64,000 nt of DNA from Chloroflexota bacterium (GTDB lineage: Bacteria > Chloroflexota > UBA11872), in contig JAPOXD010000019.1 of the NCBI GenBank assembly GCA_026707285.1, positions 1-64,000 of the forward strand. The letters are read 5' to 3'. The position numbers and the translations under genes are program-made. The notes beneath the pieces are model-generated. The model saw nothing but the letters and a program-made list of their open reading frames with translations. It was not told where the DNA came from and searched no databases. Of the stretch, positions 2,565 through 32,615 are shown piece after piece. Position 1 is the stretch's first letter. Every line of letters begins with the position of its first letter.

Positions 2565-3872
2565 ATAGAAATCCTCGTCGGCCTCGCGGTGTTCGTGGTG
2601 CTCATCGCGATCAACGCCCTCTTTGCCGGAGGCCAGTTCGCGTTGGTCGCGGTGGATCGCTATCGCATCGACGACATGGTCAGCCGCAACGTCCGCGGCG
2701 CGCGACCGGTGCAGCAGGCGCTGCGGACGCTCTCGTTCCAGCTCTCAGGGGCCCAGCTGGGAATCACCATCAGCTCGCTGATCCTGGGATGGGTCGTCGA
2801 CGGCGCACTCTCACCAATACTCCGGCCACTGTTGGGCTGGCTGCCGCCGGGGTCCATCGGCGCCGCCACCGCGGCAATCGCGCTGGTGCTGGCGACCGCC
2901 CTGCAAATGGTCTTCGGCGAGCTGGCGCCCAAGAACCTGGCCATTGCACGGCCCGCCCGCACCGCCGTCGTCTTCGTCCCGCCCGTGGTGCTCATCAACA
3001 CCTTGGCCGGCCCCCTCATCCGCTTTCTGAACGCGGCGGCCAACTGGTCCATGCAGCGCGTGGGGATTCAGCCGCGGGAGGAGCTCCCCGGCGTCGAGTC
3101 GCTGGAGGAGCTCCGGAGCACGCTCCGTTGGGCGGCGCTGGAGGGCGAGATCGAGGGCGTCGAGCACACGCTGCTCGACCGGGCGCTCAGCCTGCGCGAC
3201 CGCGCCGCGCGGGACGTCCAGGTCCCCCGCTCGTCGGTCGTCTCGCTGGCCGGCGACGCCACCTACGCGGACTTGATCGAGGCGGCGCGGGACACCGGAC
3301 ATTCGCGCTTCCCCATCCAGGACGCCGACGGCTCGGGATTCGCGGCCATCGCGCACGTGAAGGACGCCCTCCGGGTCGGGGCGGAGGATCGCGCGGGAAC
3401 AGCGCTTGCCCCCGGCGGCCAACCGCCGGTCGTGGTCCCCGAGTCCACCGACTTGCACAGCCTGCTCATCGAGCTGCAACGGCAGGGTCAAACCATGGCC
3501 ATCGTGCTCGACGAGTTCGGCAACGAATCCGGCATCGTCACCATCGAGGACGTCGTGGAAGAGGTGCTGGGCGAAATCGAGGACGAGTACGACCCTCCAG
3601 CCGTGCGGCTGGCGACGCCGACCGGCACCGGGGTGTATGAAGCGGACGGACGCATTCGGGGACCGGAGCTGCTCGAAGCCACCGGATTCGAAATGCCGGA
3701 CGGCCGCTACGACACCCTGGCGGGGCTGTTGATCATGCGCTTCCAACGAGTGCCGGCTGTTGGCGACCGCGTTGAAATCGACGGCTGGCGCTTTCAGGTT
3801 CTCGAAATGGACGGACCGCGCATCGCGCAGGTCCTGCTAACGTCGCCGGCTCGCCTGCGGGATCGCTCATGA
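2565..3872 (+). CDS. CNNM/CorC membrane protein 2, probable ATA start
   Basis: Second tandem DUF21-CBS-CBS-CorC_HlyC protein. The ORF track starts at GTG 2589, but that codon has no ribosome binding site and trims the first membrane helix. ATA at 2565 gives MEILVGLAVFVVLIAIN, the normal beginning of this family, and has AGGGA eight bases upstream. The frame is closed by TAG at 2541 and has no ATG, GTG or TTG before 2589. The membrane domain carries VFGELAPKNLAIA. The CBS pair includes VTIEDVVEEVLGEIEDEYD, followed by the C-terminal CorC domain. From ATA the product is 435 residues. Its stop overlaps the start of copy 3. A role in divalent cation homeostasis follows from the family. The gene call is firm; the start is probable. 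Confidence 0.88.
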   Translation: MEILVGLAVFVVLIAINALFAGGQFALVAVDRYRIDDMVSRNVRGARPVQQALRTLSFQLSGAQLGITISSLILGWVVDGALSPILRPLLGWLPPGSIGAATAAIALVLATALQMVFGELAPKNLAIARPARTAVVFVPPVVLINTLAGPLIRFLNAAANWSMQRVGIQPREELPGVESLEELRSTLRWAALEGEIEGVEHTLLDRALSLRDRAARDVQVPRSSVVSLAGDATYADLIEAARDTGHSRFPIQDADGSGFAAIAHVKDALRVGAEDRAGTALAPGGQPPVVVPESTDLHSLLIELQRQGQTMAIVLDEFGNESGIVTIEDVVEEVLGEIEDEYDPPAVRLATPTGTGVYEADGRIRGPELLEATGFEMPDGRYDTLAGLLIMRFQRVPAVGDRVEIDGWRFQVLEMDGPRIAQVLLTSPARLRDRS

Positions 3873-18348: not shown

Positions 18349-19125
18349 TCAGATCGGCACCTCGGTGATGTTCAGCCCGTCGTCGTTCACGTCTACCACC
18401 AGGAATCCCTGGTGCGCGTTCAGGTGGGGATCGGTTCGATCCGGGCCGAGGGTGATCCAGGTGGATGGCGCCGTCTCGCTCCGAATGCCGCTCACCGCGT
18501 CGCTCGTGCGTCGATGCACGTGACCCGAGAAGACGCCCAGCACGCGGTCGTGGCGCTCCAGGACGGCCATGAGCTCGGCGGCGTTTGTCAGCATCACGCG
18601 GTCCAGCCAATCGATGCCGATCGGATGGCAATGGTGGTGGACGAAGAGCACCGTGGACTCGTCGTCGCGAGCAGCCAGCGTGGCATCGAGCCAGGCGAGT
18701 TGTTCGGCTCCCACACGGGCCCCAACGGCGCCGCCCACAGGGTTGGAGTTCAGCACGACCAGCAGCACCCCGCCGCGAACGAGCGCATAGTAGCCGCCGG
18801 GCGCTCCCGCCGGCTCGACGTCATCCGGGAGTGGGAGCGCGTCGGCCAGCATCGCGCCGTCGTCGTGATTTCCCTGCACGAAGAGTTGCAGCATGGTCAC
18901 GTCCCGCGTGATGCGGACGAATTCCGCGTAGGCCGCCGGGCTGGGCGTGCTGGTCTGGTCGCCCAGGTGCACGACGAACTCTGGCGACGGCCGAATGCCG
19001 GCCAGTGCGCGCACCGCCGCTTCCAGATTCACGCGTGCGTCCGCGCCATGCTGCGGCGGCGCGCCGGGCGATAGGAGGTGGGCGTCGCTGAGGATGGCGA
19101 AGCGGAGGTTAGGCGACTGAGCTAT
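18349..19125 (-). CDS. Metallophosphoesterase (CpdA/Icc-like), probable ATA start
   Basis: Calcineurin-like phosphoesterase, possibly a cyclic-nucleotide phosphodiesterase. The ORF track begins at GTG 19032, but the required first metal motif lies upstream in the same open frame: RFAILSDAHLL (DxH). The only start that includes it is ATA 19125 (MAQSPNLRFAILSDAH), preceded by GGAGG with a seven-base spacer. No ATG, GTG or TTG occurs in this upstream part. The ATA overlaps the TAG of the preceding DUF3105 gene (ATAG). Later motifs are all present: HLGDQ, GNHDD, VHHHCHP and SGHVHR. The length is 258 residues. The gene call is strong and the unusual start well supported. Confidence 0.85.
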   Translation of the reverse strand: MAQSPNLRFAILSDAHLLSPGAPPQHGADARVNLEAAVRALAGIRPSPEFVVHLGDQTSTPSPAAYAEFVRITRDVTMLQLFVQGNHDDGAMLADALPLPDDVEPAGAPGGYYALVRGGVLLVVLNSNPVGGAVGARVGAEQLAWLDATLAARDDESTVLFVHHHCHPIGIDWLDRVMLTNAAELMAVLERHDRVLGVFSGHVHRRTSDAVSGIRSETAPSTWITLGPDRTDPHLNAHQGFLVVDVNDDGLNITEVPI

Positions 19126-19748
19126 GGCGCGGCCTCCGGTCCACGGTCCACGAAGTCGCGGTAGAACTCGCGCACCCGGTCAGGGTCGAAGCTGTCCATG
19201 GGCTCCTGCCAATGCCAGGCCACCAGCATGTACTTGGGCACGAGGCCCGCATAGGGCAGGGCGATCAGCTTCACCTCGCCAAATGCGCCGTCGGGCAGGT
19301 CCTCGTGGATGGCCTCAAGCTGCGACACCACCTCGTCGCAATCAGTGTCACAGCGATACAGCAACGCGATGGCTCCGTGCTCCAGGTTGTGCACCCACAG
19401 GCCTTCCTCGACCGGCCGCTCGTACACGCCGTACGGGGCGGTGATGGGGTAGTGGGTTCCGGACGCCGGCGGGACACTGGCGTACTCGATGGGCGTACCC
19501 ACGGGTACGTGTTGGCGGCCTTCGTCGTCGATCCGAATGCGTCGGGCGGCCACTTCGGCGGACGGCGTGTTCGAAACGATCAAGAGAACGATCAGCGCGG
19601 CGACGCCGCCCACCGCGAGCAACACGCCGCCGCCGATTAGCGAACGCCGCAGCCAGCGGCGGCGCCGGGCGATTCGCTGCCGCTCGTGACGAGCCTCGCG
19701 CCGACGTTCGAGTTTGACCGCAGCCCTGGTCCCGCGTCGTCTCGCCAC
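19122..19748 (-). CDS. DUF3105 membrane-anchored protein
   Basis: Function unknown. The long ORF overlaps the gnd start region. GTG 19748, with GGGGA six bases upstream, gives 207 residues. A very basic N-terminal stretch (about residues 1-35) precedes one transmembrane helix (GGGVLLAVGGVAALIVLLIV). The external domain has the DUF3105 pattern: VPPASGTHYP, YGVYERP, VHNLEHGAIALLYRCD with the conserved His pair, and Cys residues in CDTDC. The family often occurs in actinobacteria and Chloroflexota. It is co-transcribed with the metallophosphoesterase (overlapping stop and start), so a shared envelope or signalling role is possible. Confidence 0.8.
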   Translation of the reverse strand: MARRRGTRAAVKLERRREARHERQRIARRRRWLRRSLIGGGVLLAVGGVAALIVLLIVSNTPSAEVAARRIRIDDEGRQHVPVGTPIEYASVPPASGTHYPITAPYGVYERPVEEGLWVHNLEHGAIALLYRCDTDCDEVVSQLEAIHEDLPDGAFGEVKLIALPYAGLVPKYMLVAWHWQEPMDSFDPDRVREFYRDFVDRGPEAAP

Positions 19749-19896
19749 GCCGATCCCCGCTTCTGATTCCTTGGCGCGCGCGATTGTGCCACCGGTGGCA
19801 CGGCCGTCGCGTCGCTCGGCTAGGTCCACGGATCGCGACTTGTGAGTGAGAATGAAAGGCGACGGCCGCCAAGCCCCGTGAGAGGACCACCGCGAC

Positions 19897-21348
19897 ATGC
19901 CTGCCACCGCAGCCGCCGGACTGATCGGCTTAGGCGTCATGGGCCGAAACCTCGCCCTGAATATCGCCTCGCGCGGCTTTCCCCTCGCGGTCTACAACCG
20001 CACCTACAGCCGGACGACGGAGTTCCTGGAGCGCGAGGCTTCCGGCACCGACATCCAGGGTGTCGAGCATTTGGACGATTTCGTCAACGCGTTGGAGCGC
20101 CCGCGGCGAGTGATTCTGATGGTCGATGCCGGACGCGCCGTCGATGCCGTTTTGGATCAGCTCATTCCGCTGCTCGATCCCGGCGACACCATCGTGGACG
20201 GCGGGAACTCCTTCTATGCCGACACCGAGCGACGCATCGAGGTCGTCGAGGGCGCCCGGATGCGGTACCTGGGAACCGGCATCAGCGGCGGCGAGACCGG
20301 CGCGCGCTACGGCCCCTCGATCATGCCCGGCGGCGACGAGGATGCCTATGCGCGGCTGGAGCCCATCCTCGCCCGGATCGCCGCCCAGGTTGACGACGGC
20401 CCCTGCGTGACCCATGTCGGCCGTCGCAGCGCTGGACATTATGTCAAGATGGTCCACAACGGCATCGAATACGGCGACATGCAGCTCATCGCCGAGGCCT
20501 ACAGCTTTCTGGCCGCGGCGGGCTATCGACCCGACGAGCTTGCCGGCATTTTCTCCGCTTGGAACCAAACCGACCTCGAGTCCTATCTAATTGAGATCAC
20601 GGCGGATATCTTCAAGGTGCGGGACGCCGACGGCGACGGGTTCCTGGTCAATGCCATCCTCGACCAGGCCGGCCAGAAGGGCACCGGACGCTGGACCTCG
20701 CGCGACGCGCTCGATCTGGGGACGCCAATCCCAACCATCGACGCCGCCGTGTGGTCGCGCCACATCTCGGCGCTCAAGGACGAGCGCGTCGCGGCAGCGC
20801 CGGTGCTCCGTCCACAGGGCGCGCCGCGGATCGAACGCTTCGATGGCCTCGTCGAATCCGTGCGCCAGGCGCTCTACGCGGCCAAGGTGTGCTCCTACGC
20901 CCAGGGCATGTCCCTGCTCCGGGCCGCGTCCGAGGCCTACGCCTACGAGCTAGAGCCCGCGGAGCTGGCGCGAATCTGGAAGGGCGGCTGCATCATTCGC
21001 GCCCGCCTGCTGGGAGACATCCAACGGGCCTTCACCGCCGACCCATCGCTGGTGAATCTCCTGCTGGACGAGGAGTTCCGTGCGCAGTTGGCCGAAGCAG
21101 ACGAGGGCTGGCGCCGGGTCGTGACCAGCGCCAAGAACGCCGGGCTGCCGTTCGCCGCCATGAGCGCCTCGTTGGACTACTACGACGCCTACCGATCCGA
21201 CCGGCTGCCCACGAATCTCACGCAGGCCCAGCGCGACTACTTCGGCGCGCACACCTACCAACGCGTCGACCGGCAGGGCGTGTTCCACACGCAGTGGGAG
21301 CAGGGAGCGAACGCCGGCGCCGCTAGCAGCGATCCAGTCGACGGCTGA
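19897..21348 (+). CDS. gnd: 6-phosphogluconate dehydrogenase, decarboxylating
   Basis: Oxidises and decarboxylates 6-phosphogluconate to ribulose 5-phosphate with NAD(P)H formation, in the oxidative pentose phosphate pathway. The 483-residue protein has GLIGLGVMGRNLALN, VDGGNSFYADTERR, GTGISGGETGARYGPSIMPG and the catalytic-Lys segment GHYVKMVHNGIEYGDMQ. The usual 'SGGEEGAR' reads SGGETGAR here. The C-terminal half (DQAGQKGTGRWTS, IWKGGCIIRA) is complete. The length is that of the long decarboxylating type. AGAGGA lies about 12 bases before the ATG. No zwf or pgl is in the window. Confidence 0.95.
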   Translation: MPATAAAGLIGLGVMGRNLALNIASRGFPLAVYNRTYSRTTEFLEREASGTDIQGVEHLDDFVNALERPRRVILMVDAGRAVDAVLDQLIPLLDPGDTIVDGGNSFYADTERRIEVVEGARMRYLGTGISGGETGARYGPSIMPGGDEDAYARLEPILARIAAQVDDGPCVTHVGRRSAGHYVKMVHNGIEYGDMQLIAEAYSFLAAAGYRPDELAGIFSAWNQTDLESYLIEITADIFKVRDADGDGFLVNAILDQAGQKGTGRWTSRDALDLGTPIPTIDAAVWSRHISALKDERVAAAPVLRPQGAPRIERFDGLVESVRQALYAAKVCSYAQGMSLLRAASEAYAYELEPAELARIWKGGCIIRARLLGDIQRAFTADPSLVNLLLDEEFRAQLAEADEGWRRVVTSAKNAGLPFAAMSASLDYYDAYRSDRLPTNLTQAQRDYFGAHTYQRVDRQGVFHTQWEQGANAGAASSDPVDG

Positions 21349-24685: not shown

Positions 24686-25870
24686 GTGAACTATCTGCGT
24701 CTGCGGACGATCCTGATCGTTCTGGGGATCGTTGTCGCCAGTATTTGGCTCCTGCAATTCCTGTGGGGACTTGTCGGGAACTTCGCGGCGTTGGTCGTGA
24801 CGCTGCTCCTGGCCTGGATCATCAACCTGATCGCGCTGGAGCCCGTGCGGTTCATGCGCCGTTTCCGCATCCCGCGCGCGCTGGCGGCCACCATCGTCTA
24901 TCTCGTAATCGCCGGTATCACGGCCCTTTCCGCGTTCTTCATTCTGCCGCCGCTGTTTGCCGAAATCGGACGTGCAGCCGGCAACCTGTCGGCCGGTACC
25001 GCGAACGCCACGCAAATCCTCGAGAACCTGCACGCCCAACTCCTGCAATGGGGCGTGCCGCAGGACACCGTGACCGAGGTGGTCACCGGTTTCAACGCGC
25101 AGATCATCACGCTCGGCCAGGACATCGCCGCTGGAATCCTGGCGTCGACGGGAGCCGTTCTCGGCGGGCTTGGTCTGGCCATCCTGACCTTGATCATCTC
25201 GTTCTACATCCTGCTGGGATGGGACATGAATTTGCAGCGGCTGCGCCGTGAGTTGCCCGCGGAGTGGCGCGCGCGATTCGACCGGGGCATTCGCTCCGCC
25301 GAGCGCACCTTCGGCGGCTGGCTGGGCGGCCAGGCGGTGGCGTCGACCATCTGGGGCGGTGCGGTGATCCTGATCTTCTTCATCGCCGACATGCCGTTCG
25401 GCCTGCTGGTCGCCGTCGCCACGGGCTTGCTCATGTTCATCCCGTTCGTCGGCCTGGCCGCCGGCATCGGACTCCCCATCGTGATGGCCCTGACGATCCG
25501 GGTAGACCTGGCGATTTGGGTGGGCATCAGCGTGGCCGTCACGTCCCTGGTCATCGAGAACATCGTCAAGCCGCGGGTCATGGGCACGGCCCTTGGCGTG
25601 AATCCGCTGATCGTGATTCTGAGTGTGATCATCGGCGGTGTGGCCGCAGGCTTCTGGGGAATCGTGTTCGGCATTCCAATCGGCGCCCTGATATGGACCT
25701 TCCTGCGCTGGGGCGCCCTCGAGGTGCTCCACGCGCAAGCCCGCCTGCTTGAGCACCCGGACGAGCCGGTTCCGCAGCCGGCTGTGGCGCCGGCGGAGGA
25801 AGTCGACGGGGCCAACGGCGCGCCGCTGCCCGAAGAGGCCAAAGAGCCTTCGCAAGGGGTTCGCGCATAA
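24686..25870 (+). CDS. AI-2E family (PerM/YdiK-like) membrane transporter
   Basis: A 394-residue integral membrane protein of the AI-2E transporter family. Members export autoinducer-2 or act as Na+/H+ antiporters; most are uncharacterised. It has seven to eight hydrophobic segments: 6-28 and 29-48, 64-88, then a soluble periplasmic-type region (about 90-150). A membrane block follows, with the conserved GWLGGQAVASTIWGG, VGLAAGIGLPIVM and VIENIVKPRVMGTALGVNPLI motifs. A Pro/Glu-rich tail ends the protein. The start is GTG 24686, after a hairpin and without a ribosome binding site. Its TAA overlaps the ATA start of the ABC exporter gene, so an operon is likely. Confidence 0.87.
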   Translation: MNYLRLRTILIVLGIVVASIWLLQFLWGLVGNFAALVVTLLLAWIINLIALEPVRFMRRFRIPRALAATIVYLVIAGITALSAFFILPPLFAEIGRAAGNLSAGTANATQILENLHAQLLQWGVPQDTVTEVVTGFNAQIITLGQDIAAGILASTGAVLGGLGLAILTLIISFYILLGWDMNLQRLRRELPAEWRARFDRGIRSAERTFGGWLGGQAVASTIWGGAVILIFFIADMPFGLLVAVATGLLMFIPFVGLAAGIGLPIVMALTIRVDLAIWVGISVAVTSLVIENIVKPRVMGTALGVNPLIVILSVIIGGVAAGFWGIVFGIPIGALIWTFLRWGALEVLHAQARLLEHPDEPVPQPAVAPAEEVDGANGAPLPEEAKEPSQGVRA

Positions 25871-27639
25871 GGCCGCTCGTCCGGATTCTGAAATATGTCC
25901 GGCCGCACTGGCGTTGGGCGCTGCTGTCGCTCGCCATGTGGGGCGTCGCCACTGCCATGGACCTGCTGATTCCGCAGGTCATTGCGCGCGTCATCGACGA
26001 GGGCATCGGGGCCGGCGACCGGTCGCGCCTCGCCGCGCTGGTGGGGCTGACCGCCGTGCTCATCTTCGTACGCGGCGCCGGATTCTTTTTCACCCGCATG
26101 ACCATGCGGGTCTACGAAACGCGGGTGGCGTCCCGCATGCGCCTCGACTTCTACGCGCACCTGCAGCGCCTGCCGTTCAGCTACTACGACCGCGTGGACA
26201 GCGGCGACATCATCACCCGGGCCGTCAGCGATTTGGACCGCGCCCGGATGTTCGCCGGCGTGGGCGTGACCGAGACGGTGCGCATTCTCGGGCTGTACAT
26301 CGCAATCATCGTGGGCATGGCTCTCACCAGCGCCACGCTGACGCTGATGATCGTTCCGGTGCTTGTGGTCCTGGCGGGCATGTCGGTGTGGTACGGGAGC
26401 GTGGTGCGGCCGATGTGGCAGCGCATTCAACAGCAGCAGGCCGCCGTGACCCGGGTGCTATCGGAAAACCTCAACGGCGTGCGGGTGGTGAAGGCGTTTG
26501 CCAAGGAGCACGCCGAAATCGAGGACTTCGACCGCGCGGCCGGCGGTCTGTTCGATCTCTCCATGCGTCCCGCGCAGCTTCGCGCGCGGGTGATGCCCGC
26601 CATGCTGGCCGTCGCCGGCATCGGCACGGTAATCGTGCTCGGGGTCGGCGGACGCCTGGCGCTCGAAGGCGCCGTCTCCGTCGGCGTGCTGGTGGCGTTT
26701 TACTACTACTTTGCCCGGCTGATTCCACCCACGCAGCAGTTGGGATTCGTGGTGCAGCGCATCGCCATCGCCATCGCCTCGGGAGGGCGCGTGTTCGAGC
26801 TGCTGGATGAACCGGTGCGCATTGCCTCGCCGTCGGACGGTCACGCGCCGGACCGGGTGGCCGGCCGGGTTGAGCTCGACGGCGTGAATCTCGCCTACGG
26901 GCGCCGGGAGCCCGTGCTGCGCGATATCAGCGCCAAGGTTCCGGCAGGCTCGGTTATCGGGATCGTGGGTCCCACCGGGTCCGGCAAGAGCAGCCTCGTG
27001 CAGCTCATTCCGCGTTACTACGACGCGACCTCAGGCGCGGTGCGCCTCGACGGCGTCGACGTGCGCCAATTCGACCTGGCAACCCTTCGGCGACAGGTGG
27101 CCATCGTCCCGCAGGACGCCATGCTGTTCTCGGACACCGTGCGAAACAACATCGCCTTTGGCGATCCCGAGGCGGACACGGATCGCATCGTCGCCGCCGC
27201 GCGCGACGCCCAAGCGCTCGATTTCATCGAAGACTTGCCCGAGGGCTTCGAAACCGTCGTCGGCGAGCGCGGCGTCGGGCTCAGCGGCGGCCAACGGCAG
27301 CGAGTGACCATCGCCCGTGCGCTGCTCACCGAGGCGCCGGTGCTGATTCTCGACGACGCAACGGCCAGCGTGGACACCGAGACTGAACGCCGCATCCAGG
27401 AAGCACTGCGGGCGCGAGCGCATGGGCGCACCACGTTTGTCATTTCCCAGCGAGTCAGCTCCGTCCAGAGCGCTGATCAGATCTTCGTCGTCGAGGATGG
27501 CCGCGTGACCGACCGCGGCGCGCACGACGAGCTGGCCGCCCGCCCGGGCTTCTATCGCGACCTTGTGCAGCGGCAGCAGCACGCCGCAATCAGTGCCCAA
27601 GATTCCCGGCGCGCAACCGCCGTCACGGACGAGCGGTAG
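25867..27639 (+). CDS. ABC exporter half-transporter 1 (degenerate catalytic site), probable ATA start
   Basis: Membrane plus ATPase fusion, probably one half of a heterodimeric multidrug or lipid exporter. The ORF track starts at ATG 25936, inside the first transmembrane helix. ATA 25867, overlapping the upstream TAA (ATAA), follows AAGGGG with a seven-base gap. It restores the family N-terminus MRPLVRILKYVRPHWRWAL and gives 590 residues. Six transmembrane helices fill about 20-300. The Walker A GPTGSGKSS is near 368 and the signature LSGGQRQ near 472. Walker B reads LILDDATASVD, with Asp where the catalytic Glu should be. This is the known hallmark of the degenerate site in heterodimeric exporters such as TM287/288. 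The partner is the next gene. Confidence 0.9.
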   Translation: MRPLVRILKYVRPHWRWALLSLAMWGVATAMDLLIPQVIARVIDEGIGAGDRSRLAALVGLTAVLIFVRGAGFFFTRMTMRVYETRVASRMRLDFYAHLQRLPFSYYDRVDSGDIITRAVSDLDRARMFAGVGVTETVRILGLYIAIIVGMALTSATLTLMIVPVLVVLAGMSVWYGSVVRPMWQRIQQQQAAVTRVLSENLNGVRVVKAFAKEHAEIEDFDRAAGGLFDLSMRPAQLRARVMPAMLAVAGIGTVIVLGVGGRLALEGAVSVGVLVAFYYYFARLIPPTQQLGFVVQRIAIAIASGGRVFELLDEPVRIASPSDGHAPDRVAGRVELDGVNLAYGRREPVLRDISAKVPAGSVIGIVGPTGSGKSSLVQLIPRYYDATSGAVRLDGVDVRQFDLATLRRQVAIVPQDAMLFSDTVRNNIAFGDPEADTDRIVAAARDAQALDFIEDLPEGFETVVGERGVGLSGGQRQRVTIARALLTEAPVLILDDATASVDTETERRIQEALRARAHGRTTFVISQRVSSVQSADQIFVVEDGRVTDRGAHDELAARPGFYRDLVQRQQHAAISAQDSRRATAVTDER

Positions 27640-32054: not shown

Positions 32055-32615
32055 CTAGGCTCGCCCGCTCGGCGCCATGATCACGCTGAGCACCCGGCCG
32101 TCCTGCTCGGGCATGATGTCCCGCTCGACCACCCCGCAATCGGCCAGCGTCTGCTTGACGCGCTCCAGAATTCGAACGCCGAACTCGGGATGGATTCGTT
32201 CGCGAGCCCGAAACCGAACCGTGGCCTTCACCTTATTGCCATCCTTAAGGAAGCGTTCCAGCCGGCGGATGAGGAACTCAAGGTCGTGCTCGCGCGTGGC
32301 CGGACGAAATCGAACTTCCTTGACCGTGCCGGCCTTTTGGCGCTTCTTGCCTTCTCCCTGCTTGCGAGTTTGGTGGTATTTGAACTTGCCGTAGTCAAGG
32401 ATCTTGGCTACCGGCGGATGGGCGTCCGGCGAAACCTCCACCAAGTCGAGCCCACGCCCGCGCGCGACCGCCAGGGCCTGCTCTGTCGGAACTATTCCGA
32501 TCTGCTGTCCGTCTTCGTCAATCAAGCGAACTTCGCGGATCCGGATCTCGTCGTTGACCCGGGGGCCCTTGGGTCGGGTCCGCGGTTCCGCAAATCGATG
32601 GTGGGGGGCTCGCAG
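32055..32615 (-). CDS. infC: Translation initiation factor IF-3, probable CTG start
   Basis: IF-3 binds the 30S subunit, keeps subunits apart and checks the start codon. The 186-residue protein has the N-domain (VNDEIRIREVRLIDEDGQQI, DLVEVSPDAHPPVAKILDYG), a basic linker and the C-domain (KDGNKVKATVRFRARERIHP). The ORF track uses TTG 32621, but AAGGAG ends directly at that codon, leaving no spacer. CTG 32615, in frame, lies six bases after it, the normal distance. IF-3 discriminates against such codons, and E. coli infC uses AUU for autoregulation, so a rare codon here is biologically sensible. rpmI and rplT do not follow; aspS does. Confidence 0.9.
   Translation of the reverse strand: MRAPHHRFAEPRTRPKGPRVNDEIRIREVRLIDEDGQQIGIVPTEQALAVARGRGLDLVEVSPDAHPPVAKILDYGKFKYHQTRKQGEGKKRQKAGTVKEVRFRPATREHDLEFLIRRLERFLKDGNKVKATVRFRARERIHPEFGVRILERVKQTLADCGVVERDIMPEQDGRVLSVIMAPSGRA

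Follow-up and report, generated by a model that had tools for sequence, protein, structure and literature searches.

Probable AUA, AUC, and CUG start codons in several genes of an uncultured Chloroflexota family, a metallophosphoesterase gene among them

Several genes of an uncultured Chloroflexota family probably start at AUA, AUC, or CUG, judging by their conserved reading frames, and a metallophosphoesterase gene appears to be one of them. At these sites canonical starts are absent, the codons are conserved, and Shine-Dalgarno (SD) signals are present. In the species that provided the window (G000; the window is the whole stretch of 64,000 nucleotides analyzed, positions 1 to 64,000 of contig JAPOXD010000019.1), the AUA at position 19125 is the best-supported start of the phosphoesterase, a likely assignment (probability of about 0.7) that the sequence favors but does not force. 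The whole explanation, in which this AUA is one instance of a habit of the family and is used through reinitiation, we also hold to be likely.

The phosphoesterase frame and its junction

The features of the locus are as follows.

18349..19125, minus strand: metallophosphoesterase open reading frame from ATA (19125-19123), 258 codons, stop TGA at 18351-18349
19123..19125, minus strand: proposed AUA start codon, in an ATAG overlap with the upstream stop; the junction is identical in G002 and G005
19133..19137, minus strand: GGAGG Shine-Dalgarno, 7-nt spacer to the ATA, -9.5 kcal/mol against ACCUCCUU
19105..19107, minus strand: rival start at codon 7; CTC in G000, CTG in G002, G005, and G003, GTG in G004 and G001; no SD in G000
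19122..19940, minus strand: upstream DUF3105 gene (Pfam PF11303), whose TAG stop (19124-19122) overlaps the ATA

The minus-strand frame reads ...GGCCGCGCC ATA GCT CAG TCG CCT AAC CTC CGC TTC GCC ATC CTC AGC GAC GCC CAC and thus codes, after the ATA, for RFAILSDAH, which carries the DxH motif. The TAG of the DUF3105 gene and the ATA share the letters TA, forming a 4-nt overlap (19125-19122). From the in-frame TGA about 19 codons before the ATA down to RFAILSDAH, the frame contains no ATG, GTG, TTG, or CTG. A preliminary description of this DNA had reported the RFAILSDAH-encoding frame upstream of GTG 19032, the lack of the three canonical codons before the DxH motif, and the ATA with GGAGG seven bases upstream in an overlap resembling the ATGA overlaps found elsewhere. 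All of this was borne out, with CTG added to the missing codons; the contig has 18 four-nucleotide junctions, 11 of the ATGA or GTGA type and 7 of the NTAR type. Only two of these junctions, the ATAG of the phosphoesterase and the ATAA of an ABC exporter (see below), have no canonical codon within 10 codons. As a test of a chance ATA at the junction, we considered that CCA makes up 8% of Pro codons and that third-position A of fourfold codons is kept in 38% of cases across G000, G002, and G005, which gives a chance expectation of ca. 3% for the A of the junction.

The identity of the product as a metallophosphoesterase, also proposed in the preliminary description, is supported by a match to Pfam Metallophos PF00149 (2.5e-10; 41.6 bits against a gathering cutoff of 21.5). 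The set of motifs DxH, GD, GNHD, H (HH), and GHxH is full (D14/H16, G55-D56, G85-N86-H87-D88, H163-165, and G201-H202-V-H204, all invariant in the six species compared), and it includes DxH only when the start lies upstream of RFAILSDAH. Sequence matches to GpdQ (E value of 1e-19) and Rv0805 (E value of 7e-19) agree with the best Foldseek matches of a structure model of moderate confidence (mean pLDDT of 66), which belong to the same class, and the scores fall under the NCBIfam cutoffs for CpdA and SpdA. On these matches, the protein is a putative GpdQ/Rv0805-type metallophosphodiesterase.

The first canonical codon of the frame in G000 is GTG 19032, located 3' of the DxH motif and of strand beta1. 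A start there would give a truncated protein lacking both, either nonenzymatic or acting differently. This is very unlikely, since the corresponding position in the five sister species is GAG, GTC, GAG, GCG, and CGC, while RFAILSDAH does not vary among the six species and its nucleotides are nearly unchanged. Furthermore, homology to GpdQ and Rv0805 begins at RFAILSDAH, and the model places the first core strand at residues 7 to 13.

Comparison of the start region among sister species

Orthologues were compared from five species of the same genus (73 to 88% identity to G000), six species in all; a scan of genome contigs added only species already compared. Substitutions among the six were mostly at third positions, indicating that the gene is under selection. 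The codon at the ATA position is ATA in G000, G002, and G005, TTA in G003, and GTA in G004 and G001, so that ATA is conserved in three of the six species. Codon 2 is GTG in G003 and G001. The ATA-bearing species are precisely those without a GTG, and G002 and G005 share the startless ATAG junction of G000; as the three form one clade, they represent one evolutionary event and not three. The strength of the SD tracks the proposed start across the orthologues: it is -9.5, -9.5, and -5.9 kcal/mol at the ATA of G000, G002, and G005, compared to -4.1, -4.1, and -2.2 kcal/mol at the equivalent place in the other three species, and at codon 7 it reaches -6.5 kcal/mol in G001 (AGGGG), with none in G000 or G002.

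The preliminary description held that the gene must start at AUA, which is too strong with ATA in one clade only, although AUA remains the best-supported start in G000. Homologues in sister genomes with a canonical start elsewhere and an intact DxH had been named there as evidence against the AUA. Half of this applies: three sisters have GTG at codon 2 and/or codon 7, with TTA or GTA at the ATA position, but these GTGs are absent from G000, and the other two sisters reproduce its ATAG junction.

Initiation could instead take place at codon 7 (CTC 19107) after a short post-termination scan from the TAG, the AUA being incidental and an ancestral NTG having decayed in G000. This codon is NTG in five of the six species, lines up with the beginning of GpdQ, and would yield MRFAILSDAH; CTG starts occur in the family (infC, lysS, and uvrC of G005; see below), and G001 has the AGGGG signal for it. 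Codons 2 to 7 showed no protein constraint in a wider comparison, so evolution gives no proof of their translation and codon 7 remains a rival. Also counted against the AUA is the suppression of third-position changes within RFAILSDAH (1 of 9 variable, versus 76 of 147 among codons with an invariant residue), which might be the mark of an initiation region just 5' of it. However, CUC would make two mispairs with the initiator anticodon, the SD for codon 7 is lacking in G000 and G002, and such a start does not account for the pairing of GGAGG with ATA solely in those species that lack GTG. We consider it unlikely.

A start codon would not be needed at all if ribosomes shifted frame by -1 as they approached the end of the DUF3105 gene and so made a fusion protein, and the phosphoesterase frame in G000 is indeed free of stops over the roughly 19 codons that precede the DUF3105 stop. 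Nevertheless, no X XXY YYZ heptamer could be seen by eye in the overlap, which holds no conserved slippery site, and three sisters carry GTG starts, making the frameshift a very improbable solution. Finally, the sequence comes from a draft assembly of 61 contigs, and the preliminary description had allowed for a sequencing error hiding an ATG. We reject a sequencing or assembly error as extremely improbable, because the startless ATAG junction is repeated in the assemblies of G002 and G005 and because the ATA of the ABC exporter is present in 18 species.

Other probable noncanonical starts in the window and the family

The family was sampled through the genus of G000 (g1, 6 species) and a sister genus (g2, 12 readable or checked species). 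The contig of the window was surveyed against its counterparts in the five sisters for genes whose coding conservation extends beyond the first canonical codon in the 5' direction, an approach that is blind to genes in which a canonical codon closely follows the odd start. Besides the phosphoesterase, the survey singled out the ABC exporter and a CNNM transporter, each with ATA. SD energies were computed (kilocalories per mole) for the phosphoesterase, ABC, and CNNM genes and judged by eye for infC and lysS. The features are as follows.

25867..27639, plus strand: MsbA-like ABC exporter from ATA (25867-25869), with ATAA (25867-25870) over the TAA that ends a transporter gene of the AI-2E family
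2565..3872, plus strand: CNNM/CorC transporter from ATA (2565-2567), SD CAGGGA
32055..32615, minus strand: infC (IF3) from CTG (32615-32613), SD AAGGAG 6 nt upstream
Outside the window, locus L203 (G000:C29): lysS, CTG or ATC start in 18 of 18 species
lysS of G012: predicted N-terminal sequence SDDTGAEPSATAASDR

The ABC exporter has ATA at its start in all 18 readable species of the two genera, nearly always as ATAA and with an SD; its first canonical codon lies 16 to 30 codons inside the frame, with none upstream. In the CNNM transporter, the start is ATA in the six g1 species and ATC in the 12 g2 species checked, an SD is present, and no canonical start was found upstream in the 18 species examined. 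Its ATA is located about 100 nt past the preceding gene, a gap that makes it look like de novo initiation. This gene is the middle one of apparently three tandem CNNM-type genes. The CTG of infC is kept in all family members examined. Elsewhere in the class, infC seemingly starts at ATA in other families. For lysS, the start in 14 species is a CTG that overlaps, as CTGA, the stop of a greA-like gene, and in the remaining 4, which read CTAATC, it is an ATC; ATG, GTG, or TTG occurs at the site in none of the 18. In three of the frames, a GTG lies within greA, 24 codons before this start. A sample of 304 genes on G005:C10 returned lysS and a CTG of uvrC (G005:C10:166698-168788, minus strand). The latter was rejected as a conserved odd start, being found in G005 only, with GTG or TTG in the five other species.

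The occurrence of odd starts in ABC, CNNM, lysS, and infC within the same family makes the AUA of the phosphoesterase credible, and the conservation across species of AUA, AUC, and CUG starts with SDs indicates that such initiation recurs there. Most of these genes could gain a canonical start by a single substitution, and that ATA, ATC, and CTG have persisted at this distance in about 18 species suggests that they may be held by selection.

Genetic code and initiation machinery

Several ATA starts in one family could also be explained by reassignment of AUA to Met in the lineage. However, internal ATA columns were aligned with ATC or ATT far more often (52) than with ATG (15), and the family also has AUC and CUG starts at the same or similar sites, so we regard reassignment as highly improbable. 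By these alignments, AUA still stands for Ile inside the genes of the family and the code is unchanged.

The initiator tRNA is ordinary, with the three G-C pairs retained. Its position 1 (L238 in G006; L220 to L249) varies, being G with A72 in the genus of G000, A in some species of the sister genus, T in G006 (a Watson-Crick pair with A72), and C elsewhere in the class. IF3 is encoded, and its C domain differs from that of Escherichia coli by Y107L, K110L, and R168G in g1, while g2 IF3 shows R99G, R112K, R116K, and R168G. Loss of fidelity factors was considered as a cause of the odd starts and is unproven, given that IF3 is present, that the IF3 of neighboring families also differs, and that the initiator tRNA is ordinary.

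Frequency and controls

An independent sample of 110 genes (G005:C4 versus G002:C1) contained no startless genes, only an apparent antisense shadow. Among 70 genes of a control genus from the class to which the family belongs, the survey picked out infC (ATA), one short frame that shares an ATG, and a frame resembling formate dehydrogenase. The last of these (L185 to L194, G029:C2) opens after a stop and is probably cut by a selenocysteine (Sec) UGA. The rate in the family (five or six genes, including infC, in about 414) shows no demonstrated excess over that of the control genus (infC in 70 genes). We found no report of AUA, AUC, or CUG starts in Chloroflexota in the literature and, to our knowledge, conserved starts of this kind outside infC are documented for few genes only.

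Proposed mechanism and implications

Translation from these codons, reinitiation, and control by IF3 are what we infer from the arrangement of the genes. The ribosome that ends the DUF3105 gene at UAG would be held by the GGAGG and slip back one base, placing AUA in the P site, and would then reinitiate with ordinary fMet-tRNA, giving a product that begins (M)AQSPNLRFAILSDAH. In the family as a whole, AUA, AUC, or CUG together with an SD would serve a few genes, often within 4-nt stop overlaps (ATAA, ATAG, and CTGA). Synthesis would then be expected to be low and sensitive to IF3 and, for the phosphoesterase and the ABC exporter, to be coupled to the upstream gene. By analogy with the systems described below, IF3 plausibly restrains these starts.

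More tentatively, and as a reading that we hold to be less likely than not, infC, lysS, the MsbA-like exporter, CNNM, and in places the phosphoesterase might form a selected set whose outputs are jointly set by the level of IF3, with ATAR overlaps enabled as well. If this were true, the amount of IF3 would tune the infC, lysS, exporter, and CNNM set together, and AUA would let TAA and TAG stops make the 4-nt reinitiation overlap that is otherwise restricted to TGA. Gene callers that expect ATG, GTG, or TTG would truncate such proteins, with the cut falling inside a transmembrane region or a core strand or in an essential synthetase. With four to six cases in a single family, of which some are shared between genera, there is a set of genes on which IF3-dependent control and AUA reinitiation can be put to the test.

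Comparison with known systems

The gene infC has non-AUG starts in several bacteria, namely, AUU in E. coli, AUA in Staphylococcus aureus, and AUC in Streptomyces. The likeness lies in a conserved noncanonical start with a strong SD, which in the infC of this family is CTG. However, the known infC case is mainly one of autoregulation, whereas in the Chloroflexota family genes of other functions share the odd starts. As an enzyme, the phosphoesterase resembles the GpdQ/Rv0805 class of metallophosphodiesterases in sequence, fold, and the motifs DxH, GD, GNHD, HH, and GHxH.

In E. coli, AUA, AUC, AUU, and CUG rank next after GUG and UUG as starts (PMC12350097), and AUA starts with an extended SD in S. 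aureus give ca. 10 to 30% of the AUG yield (PMC13009471). The latter type is found in ccpN of S. aureus and Bacillus subtilis, where it is conserved between genera, and in citZ of S. aureus (PMC13009471), and it shares with the cases described here an AUA start with an extended SD. The ccpN and citZ starts were mapped by ribosome profiling (PMC13009471), while the AUAs of the ABC exporter and the phosphoesterase are predicted from sequence and overlap the upstream stop (ATAA or ATAG). IF3 represses starts of this sort, in infC as well as in sigR of Streptomyces, where the codon is GTC (PMC5472188); the sigR start is likewise a conserved noncanonical start misannotated by gene callers, but the codon is a different one, the start there sets the sigma-to-antisigma ratio, and control by IF3, shown for sigR, is inferred for the Chloroflexota family. 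Surplus IF3 also reduces reinitiation (PMC2268962). Termination-reinitiation is most frequent at 4-nt overlaps (PMC6728339, PMC10666635), and the ATGA and GTGA junctions of this kind resemble those of the phosphoesterase and the ABC exporter in the 4-nt overlap and in an SD within the upstream gene. The -4 overlaps described so far are ATGA or GTGA, whereas the ATAG and ATAA found here would permit the overlap with TAG and TAA stops.
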